IMG/VR virus record: IMGVR_UViG_3300047585_000202 | Coordinates: 1-39,191 of that record | From: a virus | Direction: 5' to 3' (one strand) | DNA: 39,191 bases | Shown here: one piece after another, positions 1,941 to 36,947 of the stretch | Numbering within the stretch: the stretch's first letter is position 1 | Layout of the letters: each line of letters starts with the position of its first letter | Notes under the pieces: model-generated | Databases searched by the model: none | What the model saw: the letters and a program-made list of their open reading frames with translations, nothing else | What the model was told of the DNA's origin: nothing | Made by a program: the position numbers and the translations under genes

Positions 1941-2107
1941 TTTTGGGCAAACCTCGTATTAATTAATTCCGGGAAAAAAGCCAAAGCTATAAACAGATAA
2001 AAAACTAAATAATCAGAGTGAAGATTATATTTCTTATAAATACAGTGACAAATAATACTTAAAATAATAACGATTAAATATTTACCCAACCATTTTAAAT
2101 AATTCAT
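1937..2107 (-). CDS. Small two-helix membrane protein next to the lysozyme (56 aa), holin candidate
   Basis: The ATG at 2107 overlaps the lysozyme stop (ATGA). Residues 5-24 (Leu/Ile/Val rich) and 34-48 (Tyr/Leu/Phe/Ala) are hydrophobic, joined by a basic loop with K-K-Y. A two-helix protein coupled to an endolysin gene is a classic holin position, but holins are defined by function and several other small membrane proteins here compete for the role. Confidence 0.6.
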   Translation of the reverse strand: MNYLKWLGKYLIVIILSIICHCIYKKYNLHSDYLVFYLFIALAFFPELINTRFAQK

Positions 2108-2553
2108 GCCACTTTCTCCTGGGGTTGATTCCAGAAGGTTATTTCTTTTTCCCGGCGTTCTTTTAACCCTTCCAGTTCGTGGCCTTTGTCGTCCTTGATG
2201 TATAGAATAAGATGCTCGGGGACAAGGTTATACTGTCTTTCGTTCAGGAGTTTTAACAAGGGGGCGGTAGCAAATTGATGGATGCCCCCGTTATACACAA
2301 AATCAACCAGGGCGTCATATTGTCCTTGGGTTAAGAAAACCTTCACGAGGTTATCAACGGCATGCTCGGACGCTAATAAATCATCCCACAAAAGTTTATC
2401 GGCAATCTCCAGGGTAATAATACTCCCAGGGTAGGCATAGCGTCCCGTATGGCCATAGCCGATGGTCCATTTACCGCCCGAGTCTTGATAAGCGTGCGAG
2501 CGGAAACCTTCTTCCTTGCGGATAAAATCTTGAAGTTCTAAACTGGCCAGCAT
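2104..2553 (-). CDS. Endolysin, GH24 phage lysozyme
   Basis: A 149-residue muramidase that cleaves the MurNAc-GlcNAc bond of peptidoglycan. The catalytic triad spacing of the family is visible: Glu15, Asp24 and Thr30, within E-G-F ... Y-x-D-x-G-G-x-W-T-I-G-Y-G-H-T. The later D-x-L-V-D-F-x-Y-N-G-G segment is the usual second conserved block. There is no signal peptide or SAR helix, so export would need a holin. The ribosome site is weak. A perfect 12-base palindrome (2593-2604) lies in the gap upstream. Length is normal for the family (about 145-165). Confidence 0.92.
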   Translation of the reverse strand: MLASLELQDFIRKEEGFRSHAYQDSGGKWTIGYGHTGRYAYPGSIITLEIADKLLWDDLLASEHAVDNLVKVFLTQGQYDALVDFVYNGGIHQFATAPLLKLLNERQYNLVPEHLILYIKDDKGHELEGLKERREKEITFWNQPQEKVA

Positions 2554-3077: not shown

Positions 3078-3827
3078 TCAGTCTCCTTGCTGGTTGACGG
3101 TAAAGAGGGACCATGGGTTTTTGGACAGATAGGCCGCTTCAATAGGATTGATGGCCCGGTTCCAGATGGCCACATAATAGGTAGCAACCCCAATGGTGCT
3201 ACCACCTAGTGTAACCGTAGAGGAACACGTTCCAATCGTGAGGCCGTTTGTATTGGTGCTTGAAACGCCGTCCACGTAAATATATTTATTGGCGCTCGTC
3301 AAAATCCCGATCACGATATGATCCCCGACGGTAGGGGTCACACTAGAGGCGAGTTGATACGTTGCTGCCGCTGTGTTGTTGTCCGTGTTGAAAACGTAAG
3401 TCGGTGTAGAAGTGACCTGGAGGAGCCAGCCATTATTGCTGGATTCGGAAACATACCCGTCTTGGGAAAAGATATCAGGATAACTGGCATCACTGGCCAG
3501 GGTGCTGATATTGATATAGACCGCTGTTGTAAAAGGACCCCCGAGGAAGTTTAAATCGGGTTGGTTGGCCCAGGCTGCATTGCCTGCACAGGTCAGCCCT
3601 TGATTGGTTCGGACGGTTGTTATATTGGCCTGGGTGGCTTGACGCCCTTTTACAATATCACGGGGATAGCCATTCTGACAGGGAGCTAAAAAAATCAGGC
3701 CACGGGTAATGGGATTAGCCGCATTGATTTGATATTGCAGCTGGGGATTATATTGAGCGTCTTTATATTTGGCCTGGCAGGGCAAGGATAGGGCAAGACA
3801 TACAATTAGTAGAAGTGCCTTTATCAT
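3078..3827 (-). CDS. Exported LamG/concanavalin-like tail-fibre or adhesin protein (249 aa)
   Basis: Residues 1-19 form a typical Sec signal peptide (Lys, Leu-rich core, ending C-Q-A). After it, N-P-I-T-R-G-L at about residues 38-44 is the entry motif often seen in phage LamG-like carbohydrate-binding beta-sandwiches, and the rest is Thr/Ser/Asn-rich beta sequence ending with an A-I-W-N-R-A motif that closes such folds. Likely a glycan-binding receptor or adhesin. It overlaps its neighbour by 4 bases (ATGA). A signal peptide on a presumed virion protein is odd. Confidence 0.75.
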   Translation of the reverse strand: MIKALLLIVCLALSLPCQAKYKDAQYNPQLQYQINAANPITRGLIFLAPCQNGYPRDIVKGRQATQANITTVRTNQGLTCAGNAAWANQPDLNFLGGPFTTAVYINISTLASDASYPDIFSQDGYVSESSNNGWLLQVTSTPTYVFNTDNNTAAATYQLASSVTPTVGDHIVIGILTSANKYIYVDGVSSTNTNGLTIGTCSSTVTLGGSTIGVATYYVAIWNRAINPIEAAYLSKNPWSLFTVNQQGD

Positions 3828-4606
3828 AATCCTGTCTTATAAACCCCGATATATTGGGCTGCATTGCCGGATGCATTGAGAGAAGTACCGGTATTATTCA
3901 CCACAGCGATCCCCCAATAAGGAGGCACCATGCCGCCTGCCGCTTGTGCAACCGATAAAGCAGGGCATGTATAAACCGTAGACGTCGCATTGGCGGTGAA
4001 ACTGCCCATAAGTTTGGCATTTGAAATGGTGATGGCTGCGTCGCTGGCACCGCCCCCGTCAGTGAATAAGGAATCATCCAAAGAGGTAATTAAATAAACT
4101 GAATAATAACCCGTCGCTGCGACAGAAGAGGAAGCCGTTTTAACACTGACAATGACCTGAACATCTTGATAGAGGTTTGAAGTGTTGTTAATAATGGTAG
4201 ATTGCCGTCCGCTAGCGCTCCCCAATGAGGCTAAAGTAATAGTAAAAGCCGTTTCGGAGCCATAGGCTTGAAGAATACTGGAAGCGGATTGATTTGAGGC
4301 AATAGTGACCGGAACCGAAGCGGACATCGTGGTTTGCCCAAGCGCCAGAGAAGAGCCCCCAATTTGGGTGAGGCTGATGGTCCATGGGCCAGATGCCTGG
4401 GTGACAGCGCCCAGGGTATTGGAACCGGCAGGCAACGCATTCGTGATTGAAGTGAGGGCGTTAATATTCCACGTTCCGGATTGAGTGACGCCGAGTGTGG
4501 AATTAATAACGTTGACTTGCTGGTTTCCGGATCCATCAAAATTATATGCCCAGGCAGGTGTTATGCAGAGTAGTGAGGCTAGTAATAATCCAATAAGCTT
4601 TTTCAT
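3824..4606 (-). CDS. Exported beta-rich tail-fibre-like protein (260 aa)
   Basis: Residues 1-20 are a clear signal peptide (M-K-K, Leu-rich core, ending A-W-A). The middle contains P-V-T-I-A-S-N-Q-S-A (about residues 98-107), a motif frequent in phage tail and decoration proteins, within Ser/Thr/Gly/Asn-rich beta sequence. It overlaps both neighbours by 4 bases, so the fibre genes are translationally coupled. Role in host binding is inferred from position and composition. Confidence 0.75.
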   Translation of the reverse strand: MKKLIGLLLASLLCITPAWAYNFDGSGNQQVNVINSTLGVTQSGTWNINALTSITNALPAGSNTLGAVTQASGPWTISLTQIGGSSLALGQTTMSASVPVTIASNQSASSILQAYGSETAFTITLASLGSASGRQSTIINNTSNLYQDVQVIVSVKTASSSVAATGYYSVYLITSLDDSLFTDGGGASDAAITISNAKLMGSFTANATSTVYTCPALSVAQAAGGMVPPYWGIAVVNNTGTSLNASGNAAQYIGVYKTGL

Positions 4607-4926
4607 GACAAGGTTTTCTCCACACCAAAAATAAAGTAATTCACCTTACTGGCCGCTGTAACATCGTATCCTTCAATCAAATCTGCAGCATTTAAAATAA
4701 AATTCTGCTGGAAAGAAACCCCGCTGGCCGTCACCCCCGGCGTCCAGATGAGCCGGGAAGTCCCGTCATTTAGATACAGGTTACACGTATCCGTGGTGTT
4801 ATCCGTGTTATAGAAGTAAACAGCAGTTATAAACGTGGCGGTGTTAGCCGGTACGGTATAAAGAGTTGCTTTTGAATTGGTAAGCTGGCCGCTTGCTAAT
4901 CGCTTTGGAGTGTAACCTATCGCCAC
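4603..4926 (-). CDS. Small beta-structured virion protein (107 aa)
   Basis: No signal peptide. Contains the pattern L-x-N-S-K-A-T-L-Y-T-V-P-A-N-T-A-T-F near residues 15-33 and I-T-A-V-Y-F-Y-N, which resembles the small beta-sandwich proteins that phages place in fibres or as capsid/tail decoration. Overlaps the next gene upstream by 10 bases. Function is inferred. Confidence 0.75.
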   Translation of the reverse strand: MAIGYTPKRLASGQLTNSKATLYTVPANTATFITAVYFYNTDNTTDTCNLYLNDGTSRLIWTPGVTASGVSFQQNFILNAADLIEGYDVTAASKVNYFIFGVEKTLS

Positions 4927-6077
4927 GCGCAGGCACCCGCATATAGAAGGTCAATAGGAAAATCCTGGATTTTACTATAGGTCACAGCTGCTGCTCCGAT
5001 GGTTGTTGCTCCGGTATTTGAAATGCCTACATCCCCACTCATCGCCACGCCGGTGGCAATATTGGAAGCATTGCCTACAAAAATATCCGCGCTGGGCAGC
5101 GTATTGGTCAGGATGGTGATGGGGTTTAGGGAGAATTGTGTGAACGCCAGGGGATCCGTTCCCATGGTGTTAACGGTTGCCGTTTCCACCCATGAGGTTC
5201 CCCCGTTAACCGTCCCGTTAATCACCGGAATTGCCCCCGTGTTATTGATATCGGAGGGCTGATCATAGTCCAAGGCCCGGGTTAGAATCGGGGGAAGAAT
5301 AGCGGTTTGGATCTGGGTAACATAATAGATGCCATTGAACGCACCTGATGGGCTTTGGGTATCGTTTTTAACGAGCCCACGCTGACCCACGGCGGTAAAA
5401 GTATAACCATCCCATGTGATAGCGGTATTGTTGGAACCCGTCAATGTAGCCCCTACACCGCTGACCCCATTATTGTAGGTTAGGCCGCTAGTATTAGAGG
5501 CGCTGGTGGTAGCCGCTTGGACTGCAACAGCAGGATTCACGCCCGCAATAGCGTTGGTGATAGCGGTGGTCACATAGGCGGTTGAAGCTGCCTTGGTTGT
5601 GTTGTCACTGGCGCTTTGCGTACCAACGATGGGATTTAACAACGTGGGGCCTGATGAAAAGACAACATTGGTCGTTCCGGTCGTGCCACTTACGGTGGTC
5701 CCTTGGATGGAACCAATTGAAAAAGCCCCTGTATTTGCGAGGGATAAATCCCCGCTGGCATTGACTGCTGTTGCTACCCCTGAACCATTGCCGACCCATA
5801 TTTTGGTCGAGGCCAAGCCCGGAAGCTGTCCGGTGGAGATAGCACCACCCAAACTGGAAAGTGTTAAATTTACCTGGTTTACGTCCAGGTTGAGATTTTT
5901 GTTGACGGTATCTTGCGTGAGACTCAGCTTGTTGGAGGCGACGGCCAGGTTGTAAAACTCAAGTGTACTACCGGAAAGTGTGTCGAAAAATCCATACCCA
6001 GCATTGCCTTCATTAGCCGCACCTGTGACGGTGCCCCCACCACCTCCGCCGGAGCCACCCCCAAAAATACCGCTCAT
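4917..6077 (-). CDS. Long Ser/Thr/Asn-rich tail fibre protein (386 aa)
   Basis: Starts with a Gly/Ser linker (residues 4-15), followed by repeated beta motifs such as G-x-x-S-T-x-x-I-W-V-G-N-G-S-G-V-A-T-x-V and two copies of S-G-D-x-x-x-x-N-T-G-A-x-x-I-G (near residues 107-122 and 345-361). These L-G-x-x repeats are typical of trimeric phage fibre shafts. No signal peptide, unlike several neighbours. It probably forms the shaft that carries the receptor-binding parts downstream. Confidence 0.8.
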   Translation of the reverse strand: MSGIFGGGSGGGGGGTVTGAANEGNAGYGFFDTLSGSTLEFYNLAVASNKLSLTQDTVNKNLNLDVNQVNLTLSSLGGAISTGQLPGLASTKIWVGNGSGVATAVNASGDLSLANTGAFSIGSIQGTTVSGTTGTTNVVFSSGPTLLNPIVGTQSASDNTTKAASTAYVTTAITNAIAGVNPAVAVQAATTSASNTSGLTYNNGVSGVGATLTGSNNTAITWDGYTFTAVGQRGLVKNDTQSPSGAFNGIYYVTQIQTAILPPILTRALDYDQPSDINNTGAIPVINGTVNGGTSWVETATVNTMGTDPLAFTQFSLNPITILTNTLPSADIFVGNASNIATGVAMSGDVGISNTGATTIGAAAVTYSKIQDFPIDLLYAGACAWR

Positions 6078-6382
6078 ATAGACTCGACCATCCCGGATGC
6101 GGTGACTTCGGTGGTATTCGATCCCTTGGTGATTTGCAAAGTGTTTCCGGGTGACACGATAATAGCGTCGTCATCGAGGTCCCAGATAATGCCACCATTT
6201 TCAGCAAACGGCCACGGACCCCACATGGCGACACCCCCATTGAGCACCGTTATATTATCGGCTGCGCCTAAAATGGCCGCTAACTTGCGCACGTATTGGG
6301 TGTGGGTGCTGACGGGTAATACGGTAAACGTGGTATTACTGCTATCCGAGACGTTAAACGGGACACTTGCGCGTCGGGTCAT
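6074..6382 (-). CDS. Small beta-rich structural protein (102 aa)
   Basis: Overlaps the fibre gene by 4 bases and the upstream gene by 1. Sequence is a compact beta-protein with an acidic D-L-D-D-D-A patch and L-Q-I-T-K-G near the end. No signal peptide or membrane segment. It reads as a fibre-associated or decoration-type protein; no family is recognised. Confidence 0.7.
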   Translation of the reverse strand: MTRRASVPFNVSDSSNTTFTVLPVSTHTQYVRKLAAILGAADNITVLNGGVAMWGPWPFAENGGIIWDLDDDAIIVSPGNTLQITKGSNTTEVTASGMVESI

Positions 6383-6768
6383 TACTGGTTGTCACTCGAA
6401 TAAAAGACAAAGAAACTGTAATGGTCGGCAGAGGTTGTCTTGGTAAACGTGACTGCCGCACTAACCGGGCATTGGATATAGTTGGGGTAAAACTGATCGA
6501 CCAGGTTACTATTAGCGGCGACATAAAAGAGGGGGCTTATTTGGGTAGTTCCACAGGACATATAAACACTATCGGCAGTCGCTGCCGAAATAACCCAGCC
6601 CCAGACGGTGTATTGCGTTCCTGTTACAGCACTTAAAACGGTAACGGTTGCGTTAGAGGTGTCGTTGACTTCAGCGGTTAACGTCGGAATACTGGCCCGT
6701 ATATTGGACGCTTGACTAGGACAGACTAAACTTATCGAGAGTAAAAAGGCGAATAAAAGCTTTTTCAT
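6382..6768 (-). CDS. Exported small beta-protein in the fibre cluster (128 aa)
   Basis: Residues 1-20 are a Sec signal peptide (M-K-K, Leu/Phe-rich core, ending S-Q-A). The mature part is about 108 residues of Thr/Val/Ala-rich beta sequence with two cysteines spaced about 30 apart that could form a disulphide in the periplasm. The stop overlaps the next start. It is the smallest of the four signal-peptide proteins in this operon. Confidence 0.7.
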   Translation of the reverse strand: MKKLLFAFLLSISLVCPSQASNIRASIPTLTAEVNDTSNATVTVLSAVTGTQYTVWGWVISAATADSVYMSCGTTQISPLFYVAANSNLVDQFYPNYIQCPVSAAVTFTKTTSADHYSFFVFYSSDNQ

Positions 6769-7101
6769 TTAAGCGGCGTCCTTTTGTTGGTTGATAAACT
6801 GTTCCATGAGCACGACGAGCTTAGCGATATTGGCGTCAATACGCTGCCCGGTTTGATAATCGTGCTCATCTCGTCGGTGGTCCCGTGAGTAGAGAAGCTT
6901 ATTAGAAATCATAACCACGGCAGGAAATACGACTCCGAGCCAGGAGAGGATAAGATTTCCTCCCATGTGAGGGGGTGGGTCGAATTGCGGGAGGTGGGGA
7001 TTGTCGTTCCAGAGGCACCAGGTAATTGAGATAACTGTAAACAGGAATATAAACCACCAGGTGCCGAGAAATTCGGTGATGGCGTCGGCAATGCGCTGCA
7101 T
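6769..7101 (-). CDS. DUF1003-like membrane protein (110 aa)
   Basis: Residues 12-33 and 47-66 are two membrane helices. Between and after them are the family hallmarks of DUF1003: a Gly-x-Trp-x-Phe entry, N-x-N-x-x-x-x-x-F-D-P-x-P before helix 2, M-I-S-N near its end, and then a charged R-D-x-x-R-x-x-x-D-Y tail followed by an amphipathic helix. DUF1003 proteins are usually bacterial inner-membrane proteins of unknown function. Its position between fibre genes and a second small membrane protein suggests a lysis or membrane role. Confidence 0.75.
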   Translation of the reverse strand: MQRIADAITEFLGTWWFIFLFTVISITWCLWNDNPHLPQFDPPPHMGGNLILSWLGVVFPAVVMISNKLLYSRDHRRDEHDYQTGQRIDANIAKLVVLMEQFINQQKDAA

Positions 7102-7104
7102 AAC

Positions 7105-7305
7105 TCACCCTCCATGGGCGGCATCCAGTTTTTTCTCGAGGTCGGCGGTTTGCTTGGCAATCGCGGCGTCAAAGTTGGCGTTGATTTTTTGGGTTTGGCG
7201 TTCCATCGCTTTCCACAGCGTCACGGATACCAGTAAAGATCCGGCCATCTGGGGCGTGCCTAAAAAATTAAAAAATTGGATGCCAAATGTAATGATGTTG
7301 TCCAT
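7105..7305 (-). CDS. Small holin-like protein (66 aa)
   Basis: Residues 1-31 are hydrophobic enough for one membrane helix (F-G-I-Q-F-F ... L-L-V-S-V-T-L-W). The remainder is a charged amphipathic helix rich in Lys, Asp, Ala and Gln. This short helix-plus-charged-tail shape, next to another membrane gene, fits a holin or holin partner. The ATG overlaps the stop of the gene upstream. No sequence family is recognised. Confidence 0.65.
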   Translation of the reverse strand: MDNIITFGIQFFNFLGTPQMAGSLLVSVTLWKAMERQTQKINANFDAAIAKQTADLEKKLDAAHGG

Positions 7306-8459
7306 CAGGTATATGCCTTAAACAAACACATTCCCGCTGCCCCGGCACCTGAAGTAGTTGTATTTGCGCCACTGCCTCCAGAACCAGGTGCTATTCCAGT
7401 ACCGCCTGCATTTCCATTACCACTTCCATAGCCACCACCGCCCCACAGAGAAGCACCACCAGTACCCCCTGAACTTTGACCTTGACCACCACCACCACCA
7501 CCGGTAATATTCAGTGTGCCATTACTAGCTCCTCCTCCAGCACCACCTGCATCTCCCGACGCATTGCTGCCTATTCCATAACTTCCGCCATTTCCGGTTA
7601 AGGTTGTCAGATGGGTTGCAGTAATTGTAGAGTTTGTACCCGCATTACCATTTTGTCCCGTTGAATTTTGAGAGGCTCCTCCAGCTCCCACCGTACATGT
7701 ATAACTGGTGTCTACTGTACCGCCGGTAAAATAATAATAGGCGGTCCCACCTGCGCCACCGCCTCCACCTTCATAACTATTATCTGTTAATCCGCCAGAT
7801 CCACCACCCCCCGTGACCCACATTTCAATCGAGTTGGTTCCTGTGGGAGGTGTATAGGTGTTGGTTCCAGAAGTATAAGCAGTGACCCCGAGTAACCGCC
7901 CGGAAGAGTTGACGATAGATACGGTTTGAACACCGTTATTATCCTTATATTTCAGGGTATGGGTGGTTGTGTTATACCAGGTCCAGCCTTCCCTGAAATT
8001 AGAAGCGCTCGTGGGATCAGAAGAGACAACGAGCCCTATCGGATAGAATCCTAAGGTGCTTAAACTTTCTGCCTCCCACGCGGGGGCATTTTCATCCCAG
8101 AGGAGTTGCACGGGAGAACTTGAGCCACGGTCAAAAGATAAAGAGAGGCCGCCAGTAAAAGCGGACCCGGATTGATGAGAACCATTAAGTTCCAATACTA
8201 ATTGCTGACCGCCGCCGTCTAATCCCAGACTTAAATCATTGGCCAACGTGCCGCCGGTCGCCTGCATAGCATTGATATACGTGGCCAGCGTCTGGTCGTT
8301 GTTAAAGCCGTTGCCGATGTCGGTATTAATCTGGCTGGCGTCGTTGGCGTTGCCATTGGTGTAGGTATAGGTTTGGCCGTTGACGCTGACAGTGGCATAG
8401 GAATAAATTGGCAATAAAAATTGGCATAAAATTAAAGCAAAAAACAGTAGCTTTTTCAT
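7305..8459 (-). CDS. Exported tail-fibre protein with Gly-rich C-terminal domain (384 aa)
   Basis: Residues 1-22 form a signal peptide ending Y-A. Residues 25-200 resemble a fibre shaft/head (N-D-A-S-Q-I-N-T-D repeats, W-T-W-Y-N-T-T-T-H-T-L-K-Y). From about residue 210 to the end the protein is dominated by Gly runs (G-G-G-G-S-G-G and many similar), like the Gly-rich tips of phage fibres that form polyglycine sandwiches and bind receptors. The Gly-rich tip supports adhesin identity; the signal peptide is unexpected for a virion protein. Confidence 0.8.
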   Translation of the reverse strand: MKKLLFFALILCQFLLPIYSYATVSVNGQTYTYTNGNANDASQINTDIGNGFNNDQTLATYINAMQATGGTLANDLSLGLDGGGQQLVLELNGSHQSGSAFTGGLSLSFDRGSSSPVQLLWDENAPAWEAESLSTLGFYPIGLVVSSDPTSASNFREGWTWYNTTTHTLKYKDNNGVQTVSIVNSSGRLLGVTAYTSGTNTYTPPTGTNSIEMWVTGGGGSGGLTDNSYEGGGGGAGGTAYYYFTGGTVDTSYTCTVGAGGASQNSTGQNGNAGTNSTITATHLTTLTGNGGSYGIGSNASGDAGGAGGGASNGTLNITGGGGGGQGQSSGGTGGASLWGGGGYGSGNGNAGGTGIAPGSGGSGANTTTSGAGAAGMCLFKAYT

Positions 8460-10340
8460 TTATCGAAGCTCCATGGGCTTAATGACAAAATCGAGTTCAA
8501 AGATATCCATCGGCTGATCCACGCCGGTATGGGTGAAGGTCGGCGCGATATTCCGAAACCAGCCGGTCGGGAAAAATCGCCGGGTTAAAATCGGGTTGCC
8601 CCCCCATTGATAGGTTGCCGGGTTACTGGTCCACACGCCGCCACCCCATGTATACGACCCGGTGTTTAAGGTGATGGTATTGGGCGTGCCATTGCGATCC
8701 CCGTAATCCAGGGAATAAGAAAAGGTTCCGATATATGACCCATTGCCGCGACACGTCAGGCGCGCTTCCAAGACTTGCTTGCGGGTATTGGGCGCACCAA
8801 AATCCAGATAAGGTAAGGTAAAATAAGAGTTAACCGAGGCCCCATCAAAATCGAACAGGGAGGGATGATGAACAAAGATATTCCCATTGTTGTCCCCGTG
8901 ATACCAAGTCCCATCGATATCAATCATCGAGGCCGTGATAAAGACCCCTGCGCCGTAGCGCTCCTTGTACCAGCATTGAAGCCGGTAATCAAAATGCCAG
9001 ATGACATTGGGATAGTTTTGTCCCGCTTCCGCGACCGCGAAACTGACGCGGGTATTTTTCCAGTCATGCCAGCAATGAGCCTCGTAGGCATTTGCGGTAC
9101 TGAGGGCCGTAAATTTATTACGGACCTTCTCACTGATGTACTCGTATACCATTTTTGCGGTACTGACGCCGAAATAGGAGAAATCATATTGCGCCACCCC
9201 TTGGGGCGTCAGGTAATCCATTTTGCTGCCCTGTTGGACAAATTGACGCCAACCTGCAATACCGAAATCGAAATTGACCGTCTCGTAATAATACGGGTCA
9301 GTGAGCGTGCCGGAGCCGTAGATGATACCGACACTTCTCGTTTTACCGACCATAATAAGGGGATCAATATCGGCGGGGATAAAGAAAGGGCAAATGGCGG
9401 TCATATTTTGACCGTCCCCGACATTGCAATTCACAAAGCCGCCGGTGACATTATTGGAGGTATAAATCAGGTATTGGTTAGCGACGGTGGTTTCGGCGGT
9501 TCCTGCAGAGACAATGACGGTACCGGATATGCCGCTGGAATTTTGCTGCGTGAGCGTGCACGTGCCGGGTAACGACATCGGGGCTGATCCCGACGCCACT
9601 AACGTGGTGCCGTTGATATCCTGGTATAAATCAATCGCGCCATTGGTAGCAACCGTAAAATAATATTGCACCCCTTGCCCGGCGATGGTGCCATTGGAGG
9701 TACTGACGCCTTGCAGACTCCATCCGCTCGTACGGCTGTCGCCATACACGCCATTCGCAAAATAACTGAATAGCCCGTTATACCCGGATGTAATATCCCC
9801 GGCAGTGCTGAAGTACAGCAGGTTATCCGAGGCGTCAAATAACCAAAGCCGGTTTTGGGCAAAGACCGCTTGTATTGCGCCAGTGGGTGCACCATTACCG
9901 ATGGTATTGAGATTGGTTCCATCCCAATATCGGGGAGCATTCGTGCCGTCACAGATAATGAGATAATTTTCAGCCGTGCAAAACGAGATATACGCGCCGG
10001 ATTCTACCGAACAAATCTCGGCAGGGCTGCCGTTATTGTAGTTGTAAACTTTGCTATTCGTCGCATAGATGAAATAACTGTCGCCGTTGGACTGGATAAA
10101 CCGATACAAGCCGGTAATGGGATCTGCCCCGGCATCCGTATAAAAGGTTGTAAATCCGTAGGCAACGGACAGTCCCCCTCGGTGAATCGGCATCCAGTTT
10201 TCCATATCCTGAAACTCGCATCCCACATCCGGATTTTGTGGAGAGGCAAAGCTGGCCAGGGTATTAACTTCCGAGATGGAGTTTATGCCACCGTAAAAAT
10301 TATTGAGACGGAATTGGGAGGGATTTATAGGCTTAGCCAT
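8460..10340 (-). CDS. Tail hub / DNA-stabilisation protein, P22 gp10-like
   Basis: A 626-residue late protein whose opening (N-N-F-Y-G-G-I-N) and beta-propeller-like repeats (Y-x-Y-N-N-G, R-Y-W-D-G-T-N, N-R-L-W-L-F-D) match the style of podovirus tail-hub or packaged-DNA stabilisation proteins. Residues about 200-294 are an inserted domain that also occurs in the neighbouring adaptor (see findings). The C-terminal part has aromatic-rich strands. Expected to plug the portal channel after packaging and bind fibres. Start is the ATG just after the adaptor stop; no strong ribosome site, so coupling is likely. Confidence 0.75.
   Translation of the reverse strand: MAKPINPSQFRLNNFYGGINSISEVNTLASFASPQNPDVGCEFQDMENWMPIHRGGLSVAYGFTTFYTDAGADPITGLYRFIQSNGDSYFIYATNSKVYNYNNGSPAEICSVESGAYISFCTAENYLIICDGTNAPRYWDGTNLNTIGNGAPTGAIQAVFAQNRLWLFDASDNLLYFSTAGDITSGYNGLFSYFANGVYGDSRTSGWSLQGVSTSNGTIAGQGVQYYFTVATNGAIDLYQDINGTTLVASGSAPMSLPGTCTLTQQNSSGISGTVIVSAGTAETTVANQYLIYTSNNVTGGFVNCNVGDGQNMTAICPFFIPADIDPLIMVGKTRSVGIIYGSGTLTDPYYYETVNFDFGIAGWRQFVQQGSKMDYLTPQGVAQYDFSYFGVSTAKMVYEYISEKVRNKFTALSTANAYEAHCWHDWKNTRVSFAVAEAGQNYPNVIWHFDYRLQCWYKERYGAGVFITASMIDIDGTWYHGDNNGNIFVHHPSLFDFDGASVNSYFTLPYLDFGAPNTRKQVLEARLTCRGNGSYIGTFSYSLDYGDRNGTPNTITLNTGSYTWGGGVWTSNPATYQWGGNPILTRRFFPTGWFRNIAPTFTHTGVDQPMDIFELDFVIKPMELR
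9459..9743 (-). repeat. Shared inserted domain, copy in the tail hub
   Basis: Encodes residues about 200-294 of the hub. It begins G-D-S-R-T-S and contains G-A-I-D-L-Y-Q-D-I-N-G and S-L-P-G-T-C-T-L-T. The core aligns with the adaptor copy at 10818-11135 at about 39 of 51 residues, counted by eye. Confidence 0.85.
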
Positions 10341-10343
10341 GGG

Positions 10344-11345
10344 TTAAAACGCAGCGGGCCATTGGTTAGGGAGGCCCGTGTCTTTCTTGGTGTCGGCAAC
10401 GAGTTTCTCAAGTTTTCGGGTATACAGTTCGTAGGCCGCCATCGCGTCCGGTCGTCCGACTCGTTGGGCCAGATAGGCATACACGCCTTCGCGGACGATG
10501 TCCTCGTATTTAATCGGGACAACAAGTGTGTCGGTCGTATTAACTACCTGGGGGATATCTTGGTAATAGTAGAGCGTCAGGGTATAATCCTGGTCGGGGT
10601 AGACATCCAGGTAAAGAAAATTATCAAACTTGGACCAGCGCCGGGGGGTTTGAATGGATGGGGTGCTGTAGCGGCATTTCTTCTGAAACGCCCGATAGTT
10701 GAGTTCGTGAACTTCCCCTTCATACGACAGGGATTCCCGCCGCAATCGGGTCACGTTATGCGGGTCAATTACCACGGACGCCACCGTTCCCAGATTGTAA
10801 GAATTTTGCAGGGTCGGCACAAATCGTAATGCAACTGTCCCTATCGTTTCCGCACTGCCAGACGCGACGATAACGGTGCCATACACGCCACTGCCATTTT
10901 GAGCGGTGAGGGTGCATGTGCCCGGCAAAGAAGCAGGGGCGACTCCGGAGGCAATGAGATTAATGCCGTTGATATCCTGGTAGAGGTCAATCGCGCCGCT
11001 GGTGCTGACGGTGAACCAGCAATACTGATCGTTGACGATAATATTATTTAAGGTGACTGTTTCGCCAGCATAATTTGCAGTGGCATTACTCTGGCATACC
11101 CCTGTTAATGCCCAATTGCTAGTACGTGTGTCTCCCAAGATAACCACATTCCACGGATAGGTTAATACCTGTGAGCTTTCCTCAAACCAAAACCGGCTGG
11201 CCCGGTTCACTTCTTGGAGCGTGGTGTTGAGAATATCCAGGGCGATGTTATACGGAAATTCCTGGGTGGTGCTGAAGCTCGACGGGACCTGATCCATGTT
11301 GGCCTGGCGATAGGCCGCATCGACAATCCCGATGGCAGTCGTCAT
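10344..11345 (-). CDS. Head-to-tail adaptor / tail tubular A-like protein (333 aa)
   Basis: N-terminal helices (A-Y-R-Q-A-N and A-L-D-I-L-N-T-T-L-Q-E-V-N), a beta middle and a C-terminal helical part (E-D-I-V-R-E-G-V-Y-A-Y-L-A-Q-R) resemble podovirus gatekeeper/adaptor proteins (T7 gp11 or P22 gp4 role). Residues about 71-176 are an inserted domain also found in the hub next door. It lies between capsid-associated genes and the hub, as expected. The family role is inferred mainly from fold style and gene order. Confidence 0.65.
   Translation of the reverse strand: MTTAIGIVDAAYRQANMDQVPSSFSTTQEFPYNIALDILNTTLQEVNRASRFWFEESSQVLTYPWNVVILGDTRTSNWALTGVCQSNATANYAGETVTLNNIIVNDQYCWFTVSTSGAIDLYQDINGINLIASGVAPASLPGTCTLTAQNGSGVYGTVIVASGSAETIGTVALRFVPTLQNSYNLGTVASVVIDPHNVTRLRRESLSYEGEVHELNYRAFQKKCRYSTPSIQTPRRWSKFDNFLYLDVYPDQDYTLTLYYYQDIPQVVNTTDTLVVPIKYEDIVREGVYAYLAQRVGRPDAMAAYELYTRKLEKLVADTKKDTGLPNQWPAAF
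10818..11135 (-). repeat. Shared inserted domain, copy in the adaptor
   Basis: Encodes residues about 71-176 of the adaptor. It begins G-D-T-R-T-S-N-W and contains G-A-I-D-L-Y-Q-D-I-N-G and S-L-P-G-T-C-T-L-T, matching the hub copy. The copy is longer in the middle than in the hub. Confidence 0.85.
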
Positions 11346-36260: not shown

Positions 36261-36947
36261 ATGCGCCTCCTAGGCTATACCCGTGTCTCGACCGAGGGGC
36301 AGGCTGAAAACACCAGCCTGGAAGAACAGAAGCGTAAAATCAATGGCTACTGTGATTTACATGGACCTAAGCTGGTTAAAGTGTATACCGATATTGAATC
36401 TGGCTACTCTATGTCTAAAAGACCGCAATTTCAACGTGCTAAAGAGGCGCTTATTGAGCGTAAAGTGGACGGTATCATTGCGATTAAACTAGATAGGATT
36501 GCCCGAAACACCTTTGATTTGCTGGATTTCCACCGGAATTATTTAGAGCCTAATAGGAAGGTCCTGGTGCTGATTGATACCGACCTGGACACTTCTACCC
36601 CCACAGGTAAAATGATGCTCACTCAGCTCTCGTCATTCGCCGAATTTGAGCGTGATCAGATACGGGAAAGAACCCAAGGTGGAAGAAAGGCAAAAGCATC
36701 CAAAGGAGGTTATGCTTATGGCTCCCCGCCGTATGGCTGGGAAAGTATTAACAAAGTCCTGGTTCCGGTTCCCCACCAGCAACACATCATCCAACTCCTG
36801 CGACGCCACCGCCGAAGTGGCAAGAGTCATACCGAGCTGGCCGACTGGTTGAATGACATGGGAGAGAAAACCAAGCGCGGGAAGTGGTGGAATGCTAGCC
36901 AGGTTCAGCGGGTTTTGGAGCGGAAGGCAGCGGCATCCAGTGGGTAG
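36261..36947 (+). CDS. Small serine recombinase / resolvase (228 aa)
   Basis: N-terminal resolvase domain: L-G-Y-T-R-V-S-T-E-G-Q with nucleophile Ser10, D-x-x-S-G residues, L-D-R-I-A-R-N near residue 77, and E-F-E-R-D-Q-I-R-E-R-T near 128. Then a short Recombinase-like domain (G-S-P-P-Y-G-W, D-W-L-N-D-M-G). Smaller than large serine integrases (usually 450+), it may act as integrase or as a resolvase/invertase. The end overlaps the convergent gene at 36895 by 53 bases. Confidence 0.9.
   Translation: MRLLGYTRVSTEGQAENTSLEEQKRKINGYCDLHGPKLVKVYTDIESGYSMSKRPQFQRAKEALIERKVDGIIAIKLDRIARNTFDLLDFHRNYLEPNRKVLVLIDTDLDTSTPTGKMMLTQLSSFAEFERDQIRERTQGGRKAKASKGGYAYGSPPYGWESINKVLVPVPHQQHIIQLLRRHRRSGKSHTELADWLNDMGEKTKRGKWWNASQVQRVLERKAAASSG

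Follow-up and report, generated by a model that had tools for sequence, protein, structure and literature searches.

Virion fibres are commonly assumed to remain in the cytoplasm until lysis. In the viral DNA analysed here (the whole stretch of 39,191 bases, in the following called the window), a phage fibre is cleanly preceded by a signal peptide and lines up behind it with signal-free relatives. This raises the question whether fibre-like proteins of this phage are exported and, if so, what they would do outside the cytoplasm.

Gene content of the fibre cluster

The window carries a podovirus-like gene set with a capsid of the phrog_1357 family, a portal, a terminase and a lysozyme-type endolysin. 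A minus-strand cluster running from 10340 to 2104 comprises a virion structural gene, four signal-bearing genes and three signal-free small or fibre-like genes, and also includes two putative membrane genes and the endolysin. As an earlier note on this DNA had it, the signal-free fibre gene 4917-6077 does sit among the four signal-bearing genes. The features of the cluster are listed below; signal peptides are those predicted by our caller, and handles such as L002 denote other viral loci.

8460..10340, minus strand: virion structural protein, directly upstream of 7305-8459; anchors the synteny with L002 and L005
7305..8459, minus strand: tail-fibre-like protein of 384 aa with signal peptide and Gly-rich C-terminal tip; mature N-terminus homologous to a signal-free fibre of relatives
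8394..8459, minus strand: signal peptide coding part of 7305-8459 (22 aa, caller); missing in L002:8766 and L005:14714
7105..7305, minus strand: putative lysis protein of 66 aa with one hydrophobic segment; role inferred
6769..7101, minus strand: DUF1003 membrane protein, candidate holin-like lysis gene, a role suggested by its position and its hydrophobic segments
6382..6768, minus strand: small signal-bearing protein of 128 aa, probably a paralogue of 6074-6382
6709..6768, minus strand: signal peptide coding part of 6382-6768 (20 aa, caller)
6074..6382, minus strand: likely paralogue of 6382-6768, signal-free; residue 1 aligned with mature residue 1 of 6382-6768
4917..6077, minus strand: fibre-like protein of 386 aa, signal-free (phrog_8745 tail fibre)
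4603..4926, minus strand: small protein of the fibre cluster, signal-free (caller)
3824..4606, minus strand: signal-bearing fibre-repeat protein of 260 aa with the LGQxTM....PVxIAS repeat; its C-terminal domain is also found in the signal-bearing L127:2964-3509
4547..4606, minus strand: signal peptide coding part of 3824-4606 (20 aa, caller)
3078..3827, minus strand: LamG/concanavalin-like protein of 249 aa with signal peptide (Laminin_G_3)
3771..3827, minus strand: signal peptide coding part of 3078-3827 (19 aa, caller)
2104..2553, minus strand: lysozyme-type endolysin at the cluster end

No spanin was recognised near 6769-7305, where the DUF1003 and 66-aa proteins stand between signal-bearing fibre genes. 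The two adjacent virion proteins 10344-11345 (residues 69-201) and 8460-10340 (residues 198-316) have a stretch of about 120-130 residues in common, which is about 53% identical and absent in both L002 orthologues, so that it is apparently a single domain that went in at two places. A capsid search of genome contigs returned Bacillales prophages only, at 33-36% identity; these were not accepted as the host. A Gram-negative host would fit the lysozyme-type endolysin and the short signals of 19-22 aa.

Signal peptides of the four proteins

Signal peptides were called with a rule-based caller that looks at n-region charge, a hydrophobic core free of charges, the presence of small -3 and -1 residues and the lack of a later membrane segment. 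It was calibrated on 164 annotated genes from four stretches of E. coli K-12, a calibration that may not fit the host of the window phage. With lipoproteins tallied separately and the exported labels being our own, 22 of 24 genes labelled exported were called; of the others, about 136, it took 2, namely CarB and TolA, the latter with a signal anchor. In the lambda control the caller took Lom, Rz (an anchor) and Bor (a lipoprotein) and none of the tail fibre genes; Rz and TolA illustrate that some signal anchors are called as well.

In the window, 4 of 51 genes were called, namely 3078-3827, 3824-4606, 6382-6768 and 7305-8459. The predicted cleavage sites are MIKALLLIVCLALSLPCQA|KYKD for 3078-3827, MKKLIGLLLASLLCITPAWA|YNFD for 3824-4606, MKKLLFAFLLSISLVCPSQA|SNIR for 6382-6768 and MKKLLFFALILCQFLLPIYSYA|TVSV for 7305-8459. 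All four have the positive n-region, uncharged hydrophobic core and small -3 and -1 residues of a Sec type I signal. Shuffling the whole proteins left 0 to 0.85% of the sequences called, and shuffling the first 34 residues 1.6 to 6.2%. Calls fell on 4 of the 10 fibre-region genes vs 0 of the other 41 (Fisher p = 0.0008, for a region that was picked because of the finding). Each ATG of the four genes overlaps or abuts the upstream stop codon at a distance of 0-4 bases, so the signal-coding ends are no artefact of choosing a long start. The earlier note's claim that these proteins begin with signal peptides is therefore confirmed, with the open reading frames in place and four calls by a calibrated caller, and the sequences strongly imply that cleavable Sec type I signals front four fibre- or lectin-like proteins.

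A lipoprotein reading (type II signal, as in Llp and Cor) was rejected because the caller found no lipobox in the four signals; each contains a Cys, preceded by P, L, V or L and not by G, A or S. No anchor was recognisable in the four proteins. Without their signals, most of the signal-bearing proteins have an even number of Cys, though not convincingly so, and disulphide enrichment among them was set aside as suggestive and too weak.

Fibre-like bodies and signal-free relatives

The bodies of the four proteins had been described as fibre- or adhesin-like. In 3078-3827, Laminin_G_3 is found above the cut-off (29.0 vs 27.6 bits, E 1.3e-6), 7305-8459 matches Gly_rich_2 (E 4.7e-12) and the tail family phrog_863 (E 3.6e-28), and 3824-4606 carries a phage-fibre repeat. 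For 6382-6768 there is no Pfam or significant PHROG match, and its fibre label rests on the weakly similar neighbour 6074-6382 (30 residues). A motif search found no LamG relatives among the local open reading frames, and searches of viral contigs with 6382-6768 and with 8460-10340 found no relatives. Structure predictions were uninformative, with a mean pLDDT of 30 for 3078-3827 (single sequence) and 42 for 3824-4606 (two sequences).

Two relatives of the window, L002 and L005 (major capsid proteins 63% and 43% identical, respectively), have a fibre gene directly after their orthologue of 8460-10340, and the N-terminus of this fibre aligns with 7305-8459 over about 47-52 residues, a match that 0 of 2000 shuffles reached for either relative. 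Residue 1 of both fibres lines up with the residue at which 7305-8459, cleaved as predicted, would begin. The two reading frames are closed by stops 2 and 6 codons ahead of the fibre starts, so no signal was missed there. Both homology and synteny thus connect 7305-8459 to the tail fibres of tailed phages. Like it, the ordinary podovirus tail fibres of L002 and L005 stand after the virion structural gene and have the same N-terminal stretch; unlike it, they are without a signal peptide. The comparison strongly implies that at least 7305-8459 is homologous to, and placed as, a signal-free virion fibre. As L005 is the more distant relative, a gain of the signal in the lineage of the window would be a simpler reading than its loss in two lineages.

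A similar register is seen within the cluster, where a 30-residue alignment, equalled by 0 of 2000 shuffles, joins the signal-bearing 6382-6768 to the signal-free 6074-6382, with the cleavage site in register with residue 1 of the latter. The two are likely a pair of paralogues, and the signals seem to be modules added to proteins of phage type.

Signal-bearing fibre-like proteins in other phages

The LGQxTM....PVxIAS repeat of 3824-4606 is common to other phage fibre-like proteins. Searching viral contigs for it as a DNA pattern returned at least 120 stretches, which is no census. Among the matches listed, 7 of 110 repeat ORFs with an intact 5' end were called, in 6 contigs and with one (L186) doubtful, vs about 17 of 1057 other genes of the same contigs, which is about fourfold (p = 0.005). 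The repeat ORF of L180 is called solely from an upstream GTG start, and that of L192 is signal-like by eye. The signal-bearing L127:2964-3509 shares the C-terminal domain of 3824-4606 at 40% identity. The repeat is also present in the huge-phage relative LR756511, without signals.

Signal-bearing fibre-like genes occur as pairs in L127, L131, L142 and L180, the pair in L127 with frame-shifted or small ORFs in between. L002 has two adjacent signal-bearing genes, and L003 has two adjacent called genes and a third one recognised by eye. Because the caller takes some signal anchors, the claim that such genes stand side by side rests on these six loci; L183 (second call some genes away) and the doubtful L186 were not counted. 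In several of the six, terminase, portal or tape-measure genes are found nearby. The earlier note had proposed a search for homologous signal-bearing fibre genes in related phages; signal-bearing fibre genes were found in several unrelated viral contigs, often two of them adjacent. The signal-bearing 10224-11765 of L002 and the signal-free L005:17672-18421 have an 85-residue stretch in common, which we read as a shared domain and not as proof of orthology. Shortly after the signal-bearing fibre clusters, L002:11793-12356 and L003:11072-11620 encode a small protein like a YiiX-type cysteine peptidase (by eye; no Pfam match for L002:11793-12356).

Among 50,697 phage records there was no significant match for three of the four window proteins, and the fourth matched a metagenomic huge-phage assembly only. 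This class of sequences may therefore be under-represented among isolates.

Cellular proteins, too, have LamG and Gly-rich domains (Pfam). The presence of such domains in the window proteins, and the lack of a phage relative of 3078-3827 among the phage records searched, would agree with host adhesin genes having been captured whole, including their signals. We consider such a capture very unlikely, given that 7305-8459 is syntenic with and N-terminally homologous to phage fibres, 6382-6768 pairs with its phage neighbour 6074-6382 and the repeat of 3824-4606 is found mainly in signal-free phage proteins.

There is equally little to recommend the reading that the hydrophobic N-termini are unused for export and the four proteins are ordinary virion fibres. 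It could draw on the virion-fibre N-terminal stretch that 7305-8459 retains immediately past its cleavage site, but four canonical signals stand in one cluster with none elsewhere in the window, signal-bearing fibres recur in unrelated phages, and cleavage falls in exact register with signal-free homologues. A canonical signal alone is no proof of processing, nor of export of all molecules of a protein. Real export of the four proteins is nevertheless, in our judgement, highly probable.

Comparison with known exported phage proteins

Phage proteins outside the cytoplasm have precedents in PblB, T5 Llp and lambda Lom, and by analogy a series of signal-bearing fibres would be a variant on a known kind of system. 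We found no report of such a series of tail fibres in the open-access literature, hence limited evidence.

For pneumococcal PblB a signal peptide has been predicted (PMC4508584). The release of PblA and PblB of S. mitis needs holin and lysis and is followed by binding to other cells (PMC4508584, PMC7606975, PMC5241397). Likened by function and from these papers, PblA and PblB (Streptococcus mitis SM1, S. pneumoniae) resemble the window proteins in being tail-related, outside the cell and surface-binding, but their hosts are Gram-positive and they form no series of short signal-bearing fibres. Lambda Lom is signal-bearing, encoded among tail fibre genes and called by the same caller; unlike the window proteins it is an outer-membrane beta-barrel and not a fibre, and the lambda fibres themselves are without signal.

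Bacillales phages with a related capsid encode, like the window, a signal-bearing protein between tail and lysis genes, about 6 kb past the capsid gene (L011, L022, L023, L024, L040 and others). Their hosts are Gram-positive, and the proteins of the scanned loci resemble a stalk domain (Cu_amine_oxidN1, Copper amine oxidase N-terminal-like) and are not fibre-like. Signal-bearing proteins of other types are trypsin-like in L012 and a GDSL lipase in L051.

The superinfection-exclusion lipoprotein Llp of T5, exported to the envelope, influences receptor use and reduces the loss of phage on cell fragments (PMC9586334). Like the window proteins, whose export is predicted, it is phage-encoded and exported. 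Llp acts from the periplasm and closes FhuA (PMC9586334), and receptor binding comes naturally to fibre or lectin tips, so that the four proteins might bind an envelope receptor from inside before lysis and block it or hinder superinfection. We regard this as unlikely. The exclusion proteins known to work in this way are small lipoproteins, and Llp is a type II-signal lipoprotein bound to its receptor from the periplasm, whereas the window proteins are larger and non-lipidated, carry type I signals and have bodies like those of fibres or lectins; four such proteins would also be unusual.

Expression and the lysogen question

A moron has its own promoter and terminator and stands apart from the late operon. 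The four genes have start-to-stop distances of 0-4 bases and no such separation. A consensus scan found promoter-like sites at chance level, with no excess, and none on the minus strand of 3078-8460. The gene order within the tail and lysis cluster argues for late expression and against independently expressed conversion genes, and the four genes, translationally coupled within that cluster, probably share the late expression of its tail and lysis genes.

This bears on the idea that they are adhesin-like accessory genes shown on lysogens, where they would alter adhesion or the surface, comparable to streptococcal platelet-binding tail proteins. The serine recombinase (36261-36947) and a helix-turn-helix gene hint that the phage may be temperate, and PblB, a tail-related phage adhesin reported to have a predicted signal peptide, promotes adhesion of S. 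pneumoniae (PMC4508584). However, the genes run into or directly join the tail and putative lysis genes, leaving no room for a promoter, the minus strand of 3078-8460 has no promoter-like site, and the four proteins have no lipobox or recognisable anchor. We consider the idea quite unlikely. The match of the serine recombinase is CcrB-like, a hint of a temperate phage.

Among the roles that the earlier note had offered, an altered lysogen surface is thus disfavoured; the proteins may mask receptors, coat cells, block other phages or aid release. Its suggestion of export is well supported by type I signals, by cleavage that restores residue 1 of signal-free homologues and by recurrence in unrelated phages.

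A possible role for exported fibres

Our best reading, which we hold to be moderately probable, is that a second set of fibres and lectins is exported late by Sec to the periplasm and freed at lysis. The genes would be transcribed late, together with the tail and lysis genes, and the products would cross the inner membrane via Sec, lose their signal and fold in the periplasm. When the cell bursts, the exported fibres would be freed with the virions and could bind receptors or glycans without being part of the assembly line in the cytoplasm. They might either dock late on released particles or stay free and occupy receptors on debris and neighbouring cells. The signal-free fibres 4917-6077 and 6074-6382 would serve ordinary cytoplasmic assembly.

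Given export, late docking and free masking of receptors or debris are each possible to the same degree, somewhat short of an even chance, and the data do not separate the two. Late docking stays possible because 7305-8459 keeps the virion-fibre N-terminal stretch of its relatives right after the cleavage site. Cytoplasmic assembly of virions, the premise of the earlier note, does not exclude that exported fibres dock at or after lysis. P22 tailspikes attach to heads in vitro, a physical precedent for such docking. It is rather unlikely, though conceivable from the sequences, that export is a deliberate step of virion completion, in which part of the fibre set matures in the periplasm and joins the virions only at or after lysis.

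If export is real, such phages would split their fibres into an assembled and an exported set, and the role of receptor-binding proteins outside the particle would become directly testable.
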